Below, piece by piece: positions 2,759 to 57,869 of a stretch of 59,420 nucleotides of DNA. This stretch comes from Oligoflexia bacterium (lineage in GTDB: Bacteria; Bdellovibrionota; UBA1018). The stretch is taken from contig JACMQW010000024.1 of assembly GCA_014376785.1 (NCBI GenBank), positions 1 to 59,420 on the forward strand, given 5' to 3'. The position numbers and the translations under genes are program-made. Position 1 is the first letter of the stretch. Every line of letters starts with the position of its first letter. Below the pieces are notes generated by a model, which was not told the origin of the DNA, did no database searches, and was given only the letters and a program-made list of their open reading frames with translations.

Positions 2759-3145
2759 ATGCAACCCACAAGGCGAGTTCGGCTGAGTCAATGTTTACGG
2801 ATCCCTGGAATTTTAGCTCTCTCATTGCCGTTGTTCCTCGGGAATGGACGAGGGGCGATAGGGTCGAGTCAAACGAACCACCCCTACTTGTGCGTAGCGA
2901 AGATCGACTGTGGAGGGAAAACCCTTCCGAGCACCCAAGACCTGCCCTCCGACGAAAACTTAACCGTGAGGACTCGTTCGCCGGAAGACGCACGCGCACT
3001 TTGTCAAAAGACGCACTCCCGCGCTTACCAAATGCTCGCTCGCTCGCTTGAAAACCAACCGGCCTGTCAGATTCAAGGCGAAGCCATTTCCCTCTCTCAG
3101 GAGTCTAGAGAGCCCCAGCGTGTCCCTGCGATGGCGCCATTTTAG
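2759..3145 (+). CDS. Small putative secreted protein
   Basis: A 128-residue protein that I do not recognise. After a basic N-terminus (RRVRLSQCLR) comes a hydrophobic stretch IPGILALSLPLFL, compatible with a signal peptide ending before residue 35. The rest has four cysteines (in LCVAKIDCGG, ALCQKTHS and PACQIQ) that could form two disulfides, and a helical centre. Nothing codes on the opposite strand between 2676 and 3104, so this is not a shadow of a known gene. The last 41 bp overlap the 3' end of the convergent TrmB-like gene. Existence is likely but not certain, and the start codon is provisional. Confidence 0.5.
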   Translation: MQPTRRVRLSQCLRIPGILALSLPLFLGNGRGAIGSSQTNHPYLCVAKIDCGGKTLPSTQDLPSDENLTVRTRSPEDARALCQKTHSRAYQMLARSLENQPACQIQGEAISLSQESREPQRVPAMAPF

Positions 3146-3752
3146 CCACGAGTTCGTAGCAGGTCTCACCCCGCTCTAAATATTTTCTTTCAAAATGACT
3201 CCATTCTTCGCCCGCTGAAACGTCGGTCGACTTGAAGGAGCGCAAGCACGTCAGTTCCAGCTTCCAAACATTCCGCGCATAACGAGCCGCTTCGCTTACA
3301 TAACTTTCGATGTTTGTCCTCAAAATCACTTCGCCACCGGGCTTCAACTTCTTCAAAAGTTCACCGAAAAAAGGCATGCGAAGCCATCGACCTGCGGGAT
3401 TCTTTTTGCTTGGATTCGGATAGAGAATGAACACTCTCGACAGCGTTTGGTCGCCCACATGTCGAGTCACCCATGAAACGGCGTCGGCATGAACGGGAAG
3501 CAGCGACCTGAAATTTTCGCCTTTTTCGCAGTGACGAGAAAGCCTTCCCGAAAACTTTTCGAATTTCTCGGTCGTTTTTTCAATCGCGATGAGTTTTCGG
3601 TCTGCATGATCGCGCGCGTAGCGAATGGGATGCCACCCCACTCCGCAGCCTACTTCCAAATCGAGGGGCGCGTCGTTTCGTTGGTCCAGAAACTCTGCCG
3701 CGAAAGGAGTCAATTCGCTTGCGAAGGTGGCGTCCGTCCGAAAATTTCTCAT
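3105..3752 (-). CDS. TrmB-like tRNA (guanine-N7)-methyltransferase
   Basis: A Rossmann-fold SAM methyltransferase of 215 residues. The SAM-binding loop is LEVGCGVGWH, followed by an acidic strand end (IAIEKTTEKFEKF) and, further on, KKLKPGGEVILRTNIESYV. Overall order matches TrmB, which makes m7G46 in tRNA, but the usual FPDPWPKKRH signature is replaced by ILYPNPSKKNPAGRW. This may be a divergent TrmB subgroup or a relative with another substrate. I chose the start at 3752 because its ATGA overlaps the endA stop by 4 bp; an upstream ATG at 3770 would overlap by 22 bp. It is translationally coupled to endA. Confidence 0.7.
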   Translation of the reverse strand: MRNFRTDATFASELTPFAAEFLDQRNDAPLDLEVGCGVGWHPIRYARDHADRKLIAIEKTTEKFEKFSGRLSRHCEKGENFRSLLPVHADAVSWVTRHVGDQTLSRVFILYPNPSKKNPAGRWLRMPFFGELLKKLKPGGEVILRTNIESYVSEAARYARNVWKLELTCLRSFKSTDVSAGEEWSHFERKYLERGETCYELVAKMAPSQGHAGAL

Positions 3753-53511: not shown

Positions 53512-53997
53512 ATGAAATTCACGACTCAAACTGCAAAATCACTTTCGACTGCGGCGATCGCTCTCGCGCTTGTGGGCTTCTCTGCTTGCACCAATAACGA
53601 ATCGAAAACGACCGAAACAAAAACTGAGACCACCTCCATGAATACTTCGACGGATAAAGCTGCCGCTCCTTCAGGCGACCTGAAAATTACGAACGAAGTG
53701 GTCGGAACCGGTGCAGAAGCCGTCGCTGGAAAACGCGTCACCGTGGATTATACGGGCAAGCTCACGGACGGGACGAAGTTCGATTCATCCGTGGACCGCA
53801 AACAACCTTTCCCTTTCACGCTCGGCAAGGGCGAAGTCATTAAAGGCTGGGATCAAGGCGTTGCGGGAATGAAAGTCGGCGGAAGCCGCACCCTCACCAT
53901 TCCACCGAACTTAGGTTACGGCGAGCGCGGGGCAGGCGGAGTTATCCCTCCGAATGCGACCCTTGTTTTCGACGTGAAGTTGCTGAAAGTAGAATAA
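53512..53997 (+). CDS. FKBP-type peptidyl-prolyl isomerase lipoprotein
   Basis: 161 residues. N-terminal signal with hydrophobic [15 protein letters not shown] and Cys24 in GFSACTNN, likely a lipoprotein anchor although the lipobox is not perfect. A Thr/Lys/Glu-rich linker (about 28-58) follows. The FKBP domain starts at [20 protein letters not shown], continues [20 protein letters not shown] and [12 protein letters not shown], and ends [14 protein letters not shown]. It assists folding of exported proteins in the periplasm. A hairpin lies over its ribosome site. Confidence 0.93.
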
Positions 53998-54033
53998 TTT
54001 TTTTCCACCCACTGAAACCCAACGGAGAACCAC

Positions 54034-54240
54034 ATGTCTGAAAATGAAACCGAATCCAAATCCGAAATCCTAGTCGTGGCATCGAAACTGAAGAACTACA
54101 TCCGTGAGAAATCCGGCATGAACACTTCCGCTGCCGTCATCGACGTCCTTTCCGACAAAATCCGCCGCATGTGTGACGAAGCAGTCGAGCGCGCGAAATC
54201 CGAAGGTCGTAAAACGGTCATGGACCGTGACTTCGGCTGA
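54034..54240 (+). CDS. Bacterial histone (Bd0055/HBb-like)
   Basis: A 68-residue single histone fold: helix 1 ILVVASKLKNYIREK (residues about 11-25), loop with GMNTSAA, long helix 2 AVIDVLSDKIRRMCDEAVER, then EGRKTVMDRDFG. The ending GRKTVM-x-RD is the histone-fold RD clamp and the most conserved part of Bdellovibrio Bd0055, as I recall that sequence; Bd0055 is a dimer that coats DNA and is a major chromatin protein. Lys/Arg residues lie mostly in helices 1 and 2. It is only 7 residues longer than Bd0055. The ATG has GGAG 10 nt upstream. Its 3' end overlaps the next gene by 14 bp. Confidence 0.85.
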   Translation: MSENETESKSEILVVASKLKNYIREKSGMNTSAAVIDVLSDKIRRMCDEAVERAKSEGRKTVMDRDFG

Positions 54241-55084
54241 TTCGAAAAAGAAAAAATCTGGCCTCGCTTCGGGTTACCTTCACGGGTTTTCCCGAAGCGA
54301 GCAGGATCGCCTATACTGGCAAGCTCGCTTCCTAGAGCCTTACGTCCACTCAAACATCGAATTTCTGGGCACTTTGAGTGGTCCTTCTCGCATCCTCGAA
54401 GTAGGATCCGGCGTCGGGGCTCAAACCGAAATTCTACTGCGCAGGCATCCCCAGATCGTGATTGATTCGGTCGACGCTTCTCATGCGCAGGTCCTGCGTG
54501 CTCGAAAACATCTGGCAACGTCTGTGAAAGCAAAACGGGTACGGATCCACGAAGCAGATGCCCTCCACCTCCCCTTTGCGGAGAATAGTTTCGATGGCGC
54601 GTTCCTCTGCTGGTTTTTAGAACACGTTGCCGCTCCCGTCGATATTTTACGCGAAGTTCGCCGCTGCCTGAAAGAGCGCGCAACGATCCACTGCACAGAA
54701 GTGATGAACTCTGCCTTTTTCGTCCATCCCTATTCTCCCGCAACTTTACAGTACTGGTTTGAATTCAATGACTCGCAGTGGAGTATGAAGGGTGATCCTT
54801 TCATCGGGGCAAAACTAGGAAACGATTTACAAACCGCCGGCTTTCAAAATATCAAAACTGAAATCGTCACGCACCATTACGACAACCGCACTCCGAAGCT
54901 TCGCGCGATGTTCATCGAGGACATGACTGGGGTGCTCTTATCCGCAGCGCCTGGGCTGGTCGCCGCAAAAAAAGTAACGCGAAAGCTTGTGGAACAAATG
55001 AAGTCGGAACTGAAACAACTCAAACACGATCCAAATGCGGTCTTCGTAAACGCGTGGGTCTACGCCTCCGCTCAGGCGTTTTAA
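54227..55084 (+). CDS. SAM-dependent methyltransferase
   Basis: 285 residues, class I Rossmann methyltransferase (UbiE/Methyltransf_11 type). SAM motif ILEVGSGVGAQTEILLRR, acidic residue in VDASHAQVLRARKHL, post-II segment DALHLPFAENSFDGAFLCWF, and REVRRCLKERATIHCTEVM. The most likely start is the GTG at 54227 (MTSADSKKKKSGLASGYLHG), inside the last codons of the histone gene, suggesting translational coupling. Longer frames run further into the histone gene. The substrate is unknown. A histone-associated modification is a tempting but untested idea. Confidence 0.82.
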   Translation: MTSADSKKKKSGLASGYLHGFSRSEQDRLYWQARFLEPYVHSNIEFLGTLSGPSRILEVGSGVGAQTEILLRRHPQIVIDSVDASHAQVLRARKHLATSVKAKRVRIHEADALHLPFAENSFDGAFLCWFLEHVAAPVDILREVRRCLKERATIHCTEVMNSAFFVHPYSPATLQYWFEFNDSQWSMKGDPFIGAKLGNDLQTAGFQNIKTEIVTHHYDNRTPKLRAMFIEDMTGVLLSAAPGLVAAKKVTRKLVEQMKSELKQLKHDPNAVFVNAWVYASAQAF

Positions 55085-55090
55085 GTCTTC

Positions 55091-55489
55091 ATGGATTTTC
55101 GGAACATCGCGATCCAAAAACCTGAACTTCGAGCCCTCGGTGAGAGGCTGGGTGAAGGTCGCATTCGCGCGCTGGTTTTCGATTTCTACGCACGCATGAG
55201 TTCAGATTTGATGATCGGTTTTTTCTTCGACGGAAAAGATTTGAGCGAGATTTCAAATCTTCAGACCTCGTTCGTCCTGCGTGCCATGGGCATCACCTCG
55301 AGCTACGTCGGCCGGTCGCCGGCAAATGCGCATTCGGAACTTCCGCCCATCCTCAGCGGACACTTCGACCGAAGGCTCCAACTTCTCGACGCCGCTTTAA
55401 CTCATGGAGGACTGAGCCCCGAGGAACGAGAAGTTTGGATCGGATTTGAGAATGCATTTAGAAGTGCCATCGTTCAGCCAAATGCTTAA
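55091..55489 (+). CDS. Truncated hemoglobin-like globin
   Basis: 132 residues with the trHb pattern: RIRALVFDFYARMSSDLMIG, FFFDGKDLSEI (E-helix lead), SFVLRAMGITSSYVG, and NAHSELPPILSGHFDRRLQL. The His in NAHSEL is the likely proximal (F8) heme ligand, and Phe/Tyr of DFYARM sit at B9/B10, where trHbs bind or detoxify O2, NO or sulfide. I infer the heme binding from these residues. Starts 6 bp after the methyltransferase stop. Confidence 0.78.
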   Translation: MDFRNIAIQKPELRALGERLGEGRIRALVFDFYARMSSDLMIGFFFDGKDLSEISNLQTSFVLRAMGITSSYVGRSPANAHSELPPILSGHFDRRLQLLDAALTHGGLSPEEREVWIGFENAFRSAIVQPNA

Positions 55490-56229: not shown

Positions 56230-56976
56230 ATGCAGACTCCCGCACAAATCGAAAGATCCACCTCGGTCATCCCCCCACTCGCCATCCCGGAGCGGATTCG
56301 CGCGATCCGGTATTTTTCCGGATTAAACCAAACCGAACTTTCGAAACTGCTGGAATGCTCTCAAGGGACGGTTTCAAAACTAGAAAACGGTGAGCTCGAA
56401 CCCACTGCGTTTCATCTCGTGAGGATGCGGCAAGTGTTCGGGATCTCGATTGATGCGATCGTCGATGGACTGATTCCCTACCGAAGTGTTTCAGAGCGTT
56501 TCTCAAATTCGTCTTTGCTTCCTTCTCGCTACGCGCGCGGAGCAGGGACAAAACTTAAATTTCTTTACCCGCTCGTACGCGCTTTTGAAATGCGTTATGG
56601 CTACGAACGGTTTCTTCGTGAACTTCAAAAAATCGGGGTGAAGCCTGCTGTATTCGCCGAGCCAGAGCTTTTAGTGAGTACCGCTTTCTTCCACGACTTA
56701 GTTGAAATTTACCGCGAATGCGGCCCGGCTGAAGTAAAAACATTCTTGGGCGACGTGCAAAAATGTGTCGCAATCATCCAATCTTCGCTGCCGACCACGG
56801 CCCCTCAAACGGACGAATGGGTTCATCCGGAAAAGTGGAATCTCCTAACAACGGGTACGGATGATTCCTCCTGGGGATCGCGTCCCTATGCAAATGCGAT
56901 CGTGCAAGGGATGCGAAGTGGTAAAGCACTCCCAAGCCACCCACAGCAACAACGCCAGAAGCGGGTACGTGCCTGA
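56230..56976 (+). CDS. XRE-type helix-turn-helix sensor regulator
   Basis: 248 residues. The N-terminal HTH is IRAIRYFSGLNQTELSKLLE followed by CSQGTVSKLENGELEPTAF. The middle section YPLVRAFEMRYGYERFLREL, KPAVFAEPELLVSTAFFHDL resembles the helical ligand domain at the N-terminus of some AraC-type regulators (PF12625-like); this is a by-eye inference. The C-terminal 50 residues are Gly/Ser/Gln rich. It appears to be the first of two tandem paralogues. Ligand and targets are unknown. Confidence 0.72.
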   Translation: MQTPAQIERSTSVIPPLAIPERIRAIRYFSGLNQTELSKLLECSQGTVSKLENGELEPTAFHLVRMRQVFGISIDAIVDGLIPYRSVSERFSNSSLLPSRYARGAGTKLKFLYPLVRAFEMRYGYERFLRELQKIGVKPAVFAEPELLVSTAFFHDLVEIYRECGPAEVKTFLGDVQKCVAIIQSSLPTTAPQTDEWVHPEKWNLLTTGTDDSSWGSRPYANAIVQGMRSGKALPSHPQQQRQKRVRA

Positions 56977-57041: not shown

Positions 57042-57869
57042 ATGATCCTAGACGGGTTGGAGATCGATCGATTCCGGTTTTTAAGCGACTGCATTTCTTC
57101 CGCCGGTCCTGGCATTTATTCCCTGAAGAAAATTGCAGATTACTTCGACATGAGTTTGGATGACCTCATTGACGACCGGATTGATTCGGACTGGGTTAGG
57201 CGTCCCACGCTGAATGAACGGTACCGAGCGGCCGACGGATCGAAATTTAGAACGTCTCTCCCGCTTTTACACTGGCTTGAAAAAAACTACGGAGAAGCCA
57301 CCCAGAAAAACGTTCTCCGCTCGGTAAAGGTTCCGGCGGAGCTCCTTCAATTTCCAGATCAAAGCGTAAAGCTGAGCCTCCTGAGAGATCTGATCCATGC
57401 GGCGAAAGTACGAGGACTGACCGACGATGCCGTCTTCGCCATCGGACTTTCGGCCTTGAAAATTGGCGAGAATGAAACGATTCGAAAATCACTTTCAGGT
57501 TACCGATCACCGACTGCAGCCTACGAATTCTTTTTCGGTCCGAGCGGACCCATCGAGCGGTTTGAAACGAACTTCCGTTATCGGATCGAAAAAATGAATT
57601 CCTCCTCCGTGACCCTATCTGTAACTCCCTATGCGGAACGCATGACCGAAATCGGTGCAGAAACGATGTATGACCGCTCCCTTTCAATCTATCGATGGGG
57701 AGCCGCTTCCGGAGTTTTAGGCCTCGTGTCGGGTACGCTTCAAGGCGTCACTCCGCTGCGAACTGCGAATAACGCAGGTGATTCAGAGCTTTTCGAAATC
57801 TCTTGGCTTCCCGACCGCCATCAGGCTGCTCGAGGAAGAGCCTCTCTCTCGCCTCTCAGACTTTTATAA
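57042..57869 (+). CDS. Second XRE-like sensor regulator, degenerate HTH, start uncertain
   Basis: At least 275 residues. The region LKKIADYFDMSLDDLIDDRI aligns with the end of the first regulator's HTH (FGISIDAIVDGLI), then LPLLHWLEKNYGEATQKNVL and QSVKLSLLRDLIHAAKVRGL repeat the same AraC-ligand-like section. The second half, ending SELFEISWLPD, resembles a 4VR/V4R-like closing. Coding resemblance continues upstream in frame (WLEKVEYLSELRHSSVE), with no ATG, GTG or TTG; a CTG at 56973 overlaps the preceding stop and would make a 298-residue protein. The HTH has lost the usual QxxxA...S pattern. The 3' end overlaps the convergent gene by 49 bp. Confidence 0.65.
   Translation: MILDGLEIDRFRFLSDCISSAGPGIYSLKKIADYFDMSLDDLIDDRIDSDWVRRPTLNERYRAADGSKFRTSLPLLHWLEKNYGEATQKNVLRSVKVPAELLQFPDQSVKLSLLRDLIHAAKVRGLTDDAVFAIGLSALKIGENETIRKSLSGYRSPTAAYEFFFGPSGPIERFETNFRYRIEKMNSSSVTLSVTPYAERMTEIGAETMYDRSLSIYRWGAASGVLGLVSGTLQGVTPLRTANNAGDSELFEISWLPDRHQAARGRASLSPLRLL

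Follow-up and report, generated by a model that had tools for sequence, protein, structure and literature searches.

Gene content of the locus

The window, i.e., the whole stretch of DNA analysed here, comprises 59,420 nt of one contig (JACMQW010000024.1) from an Oligoflexia bacterium genome assembly. An open reading frame of 68 codons with an ATG start is found at 54034–54240 (+ strand), and a Shine-Dalgarno-like GGAG can be read directly in the sequence 6 nt 5′ of the ATG (54024–54027, + strand). GGAG- or AGG-like sequences precede most of the orthologous starts. The complete protein encoded by this frame is MSENETESKSEILVVASKLKNYIREKSGMNTSAAVIDVLSDKIRRMCDEAVERAKSEGRKTVMDRDFG, with the C-terminal end ...EGRKTVMDRDFG. 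Judged by sequence comparison, it is a genuine histone of the HBb (Bd0055) 'bacterial dimer' kind, which has already been published with structures.

Three further genes on the + strand surround the histone gene. Upstream, 53512–53997 encodes an FKBP-type peptidyl-prolyl isomerase (PF00254, E 1.4e-39, and synteny) with a predicted lipoprotein signal (…LVGFSAC); lipobox-like N-termini were also seen in many FKBP homologues. Downstream, a class I SAM methyltransferase with a GTG start (54227–55084; Methyltransf_11, E 8.6e-18) overlaps the histone gene by 14 nt and is followed by a bacterial (truncated-type) globin (55091–55489; PF01152, E 9.6e-8), which synteny shows to be conserved on the downstream side of the FKBP-globin locus. 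The promoter and terminator scan gave results at chance level. Two neighbouring genes lie further downstream: the product of 56230–56976 carries an HTH_3 domain, and that of 57042–57869, which has no Pfam match, resembles by eye the middle of the first and may be a diverged or mis-started paralogue.

The histone and its known relatives

The preliminary description had called the product a single 68-residue histone fold of the Bd0055 type, and had named a PF00808-type profile search as a check. Both the assignment and the check held up. The match to PF00808 is just above the curated cut-off (22.5 bits against a gathering score of 21.4, E 1.4e-4), and phmmer against the PDB retrieved 8cmp (1.3e-15) and 8fvx (1.6e-15), both of which are HBb/Bd0055. 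With a profile built from 44 histone relatives, the HBb match rises to E 8.4e-24. A gapless alignment with HBb covers 58 residues, 34 of which are identical. The phmmer E values descend from ∼1e-15 for HBb through 3.4e-8 for HLp, an FtF histone, to ∼0.1–0.2 for archaeal histones; grouped by these scores, the window histone is nearer HBb than FtF or archaeal histones.

The predicted monomer is of moderate confidence (pLDDT 75.6, pTM 0.50). In a Foldseek search with this model the top five matches were all HBb entries (probability 1.00), and the remainder were insignificant. The model superposes on HBb only loosely (rmsd about 7.5, TM about 0.6), and this is no positive test of dimer geometry. 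A loose superposition is expected because an obligate dimer, whose helices pack across the dimer, was folded as a monomer.

HBb of the predatory bacterium Bdellovibrio bacteriovorus (PDB 8cmp, 8fvx, 8fw7, 9ezz, 9f0e; PMC10627809, PMC11317129) has in common with the window histone a single short histone fold without long tails, the same RD clamp, nine of ten DNA contacts, and an origin in the same clade of bacteria. Unlike HBb, the window histone has an acidic N-terminal extension of ∼8 residues and is net neutral (13 K+R, 13 D+E, pI 6.3), and its gene stands alongside those of FKBP and methyltransferase/globin. HLp of Leptospira perolatii (PDB 9qt0; PMC12701072), the bacterial FtF tetramer histone, likewise has a single bacterial histone fold, but is more distant from the window histone, is tetrameric and wraps DNA. 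The archaeal HMfA and HMfB share the histone fold and the RD clamp, although the single-sequence E value is only ∼0.2; archaeal histones differ from the window histone in their longer alpha2 and in forming hypernucleosomes.

RD clamp and DNA-contact residues

In HBb the RD clamp is formed by R51 and D58, and the phosphate contacts are T8, S9, K10, K12, T23, S24, A25, K52, T53, and R57 (PMC11317129). The contact positions map to A16, S17, K18, K20, T31, S32, A33, K60, T61, and R65 of the window histone, T8 to A16 being the only substitution among the ten; outside the contacts, HBb D49 is E57 here. The stretch RKTVMDRD (54208–54231, + strand; codons R59 to D66) thus holds the RKTxxxxD motif with the clamp R59/D66 and the contact residues K60, T61, and R65, which map to HBb R51/D58, K52, T53, and R57. 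An RD clamp had been claimed from the sequence and is present, but it is not the adjacent pair R65-D66: the arginine that pairs with D66 is R59, and R65 is the equivalent of HBb R57, a DNA contact. The Ser-Lys motif and the lysines at the start of alpha1 (S9-K10 and K12 in HBb) are found as S17-K18 and K20.

Almost all of the HBb contact residues are invariant in 44 homologues. Positions conserved throughout include K18 and K20 (each 44/44), T31, R59, K60, T61, D64, R65, and D66.

Distribution of the histone among bacteria

The search covered 58 genomes, the window's own among them and the others from its genus, family, order, and class, and detected the histone in 54; the open reading frame is therefore no chance frame. 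A scan of a genome collection with one genome per species found relatives encoded in 522 stretches. The best of these belong to Bdellovibrionales/Oligoflexia metagenome bins, and other labels among the 522 include Myxococcota, Planctomycetota, Spirochaetota, Gemmatimonadota, and Brocadia/Scalindua. The description of such histones as rare in bacteria is apt for bacteria overall, with a histone fold encoded by 1.86% of genomes (PMC10627809); it does not fit the window's own clade, with 54/58 genomes positive. Concentration of the HBb-type family in Bdellovibrionia has been reported (PMC11390915).

These counts rest on the protein search and not on PF00808, because the latter is too insensitive: of 34 genomes of the order it picked up the histone in only 3, whereas the protein query matches nearly all of them. 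Profile-only counts would therefore miss most HBb-type histones.

A second histone-like match, weaker and in a longer open frame (mostly of 165–198 aa, with one of 492), was seen in seven genomes (G008, G018, G023, G028, G032, G044, and G056); these are perhaps ZZ-type histones. No second match was detected in the window's own genome.

Conservation of the gene neighbourhood

Searches for the histone, methyltransferase, FKBP, and globin were combined into one synteny table over the same 58 genomes, with a cut-off of E below 1e-25 for presence of the methyltransferase. The assemblies are drafts with many contigs, and some absences could be gaps. Across 53512–55489 and the genomes compared with it, the FKBP lipoprotein and the globin form a pair conserved across families, and the histone and methyltransferase genes are variable inserts. 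The FKBP-globin pair is the backbone, into which the other two have been slotted. Within the family, 28 of the 31 genomes with a histone have FKBP directly upstream of it, as do single members of three more families (f3, f4, and f6). The pair also occurs without the histone, in G013, G015, and eleven genomes of family f5; in families f2, f5, f7, and f8 the histone sits elsewhere, outside FKBP-globin.

The methyltransferase is present in 15 of the 58 genomes. It lies 3′ of the histone in six of the 54 that bear one, all in family f1 and including the window's own. G016 has the order FKBP-methyltransferase-globin, with its histone on another contig; G011 has FKBP-methyltransferase and no histone was found there; in seven more genomes the methyltransferase is elsewhere. 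The two genomes of the window's own genus (one only 87% complete) gave no methyltransferase match, and in these the histone is followed by the globin. Of 80 histone loci taken from a second collection of genome contigs, which overlap the 58 genomes, only five adjoin the methyltransferase. A conserved linkage of histone and methyltransferase was thus found neither in the genomes (6/54) nor at the loci (5/80).

The methyltransferase gene and its relatives

Upstream, the methyltransferase frame runs open into the histone gene, with GTG at 54173 and GTG at 54227 as its only in-frame starts. Both are within the histone frame, which bears out the earlier statement that the methyltransferase start lies inside the histone gene. 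GTG 54227, with the 14-nt overlap, is favoured because homologues begin about 5–15 residues ahead of the conserved YLHGFS motif; the extension to GTG 54173 is not conserved, and that start is disfavoured. Three of the other carriers have distances of −4, −1, and +9 nt between the two genes; the remaining two have about 45 and 100 nt or more. Counting the 14-nt overlap here, four of the six carriers are thus tightly coupled, three by overlap (14, 4, and 1 nt) and one across a 9-nt gap. The position of the start makes co-expression plausible in the window's own genome, and co-translation is plausible in the tightly coupled carriers, this genome among them.

The nearest solved structure is 3mgg, a Methanosarcina mazei methyltransferase related over the whole length (phmmer 1.1e-29, profile 1.1e-44, TM 0.74–0.76 by query length), for which no substrate was found. 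After 3mgg come natural-product and phospho-base enzymes, i.e., RebM, AtmM, MitM, and phosphoethanolamine methyltransferases. Among the nearest relatives whose chemistry is known, most are class I methyltransferases of small molecules. One relative, LahSB, acts on a peptide, and the family alone therefore leaves a protein substrate possible. No SET, DOT1, or PRMT enzyme is among the matches, which are only to generic class I families, mostly of small-molecule enzymes; a SET domain was likewise not found in the genome. The other contexts of the methyltransferase (MgsA-like ATPase, GNAT acetyltransferase, outer-membrane efflux protein, another methyltransferase) reveal no common pathway.

Proposed role of the histone and alternative readings

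Sequence comparison has established the family membership, the conservation of clamp and contact residues, and how the neighbours are distributed. On this basis we consider it very probable that the gene encodes an ordinary HBb-type histone, an HU-like DNA-bending nucleoid protein, and that the methyltransferase is a passenger and not a histone modifier. By homology with HBb, the histone most likely forms a homodimer. HBb dimers bind and bend DNA non-specifically (PMC11317129), and the conserved contact residues suggest that the dimer here would do the same through its L1-L2 loops and first helix. Its most likely role is that of an HU-like nucleoid protein, working alongside other HU/IHF-family proteins of the cell, for which the genome gave four matches. 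The histone gene probably shares a transcript with the FKBP lipoprotein gene upstream of it. The methyltransferase gene would be a mobile passenger of the FKBP-globin locus, and the overlap of its start with the end of the histone gene would be incidental; the enzyme's substrate is most likely a small molecule or lipid rather than the histone. The net neutral charge of the histone counts against this reading as a whole, as does the tight coupling of histone and methyltransferase genes in four of six carriers.

A functional tie to the FKBP isomerase, in the manner of eukaryotic nuclear FKBPs that act on histones, would account for the position of FKBP directly upstream of the histone, seen in 28/31 genomes with a histone within the family and in three other families as well. 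The lipoprotein-type signal peptide, seen here and in many homologues, speaks against it: FKBP should therefore be outside the cytoplasm, and an enzyme that looks like an exported lipoprotein is unlikely to be a histone isomerase. The genomes that keep FKBP-globin without the histone (eleven of f5, plus G013 and G015) argue in the same direction, as do the families in which the histone is elsewhere (f2, f5, f7, and f8). We regard such a tie as quite improbable.

The preliminary description took the overlap as a sign of functional coupling and raised the question of histone modification. The methyltransferase would then methylate the histone, e.g., at the invariant K18, K20, or K60, at least two of which are DNA contacts in HBb, and the overlap would keep both proteins in step as a bacterial histone-modification module. 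Class I methyltransferases can act on proteins, and the start inside the histone gene and the tight coupling in 4/6 carriers speak for such a module. But adjacency is confined to 6/54 histone-bearing genomes of a single family, with same-genus genomes that gave no match; in G016 and G011 the methyltransferase occupies the locus without the histone, and seven genomes have it elsewhere; histones from species lacking the methyltransferase show the same invariant K18, K20, and K60; and the nearest characterised relatives are mostly small-molecule enzymes, with SET, DOT1, and PRMT absent from the matches. The module was rejected on synteny (6/54 genomes, 5/80 loci), and we hold it to be highly improbable. 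Methylation of the histone only in the few species where the two genes overlap, as a lineage-restricted bacterial histone modification, is held to be just as improbable. In the literature searched, which was partial in coverage, no report of bacterial histone methylation or of such a gene arrangement was found.

Least probable of all is that the histone regulates its own operon locally instead of serving as a global nucleoid protein. Its embedding in a small conserved gene cluster in one family speaks for such a role; against it, the same histone stands in unrelated contexts in other families, and the homologue HBb is abundant and binds the whole chromosome without sequence specificity (PMC11317129, PMC10627809).

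The preliminary description correctly recognised a real histone and over-read the local gene overlap. The comparative result is a guard here: a histone-modifying enzyme was suggested by the overlap seen in a single genome, and gene order in the relatives gives it no support. The ordinary nucleoid histone preferred above adds a new orthologue, with its gene neighbourhood, to a family that was surprising in bacteria in 2023 and is now published with structures.

Relatives without a detected histone

At two loci of related genomes, L046 (G013:C272, about 3458–3541) and L047 (G015:C93, about 3055–3094), FKBP is followed directly by the globin and the histone is absent between them. The profile search (E up to 1) detected no histone anywhere in G013 (95% complete) or G015 (97% complete). 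Provided that the assemblies are correct, these two lineages have lost the histone. HBb resisted deletion in B. bacteriovorus (PMC11317129); that two near-complete relatives apparently lack the histone by nature is relevant to the question of why that species needs the gene.
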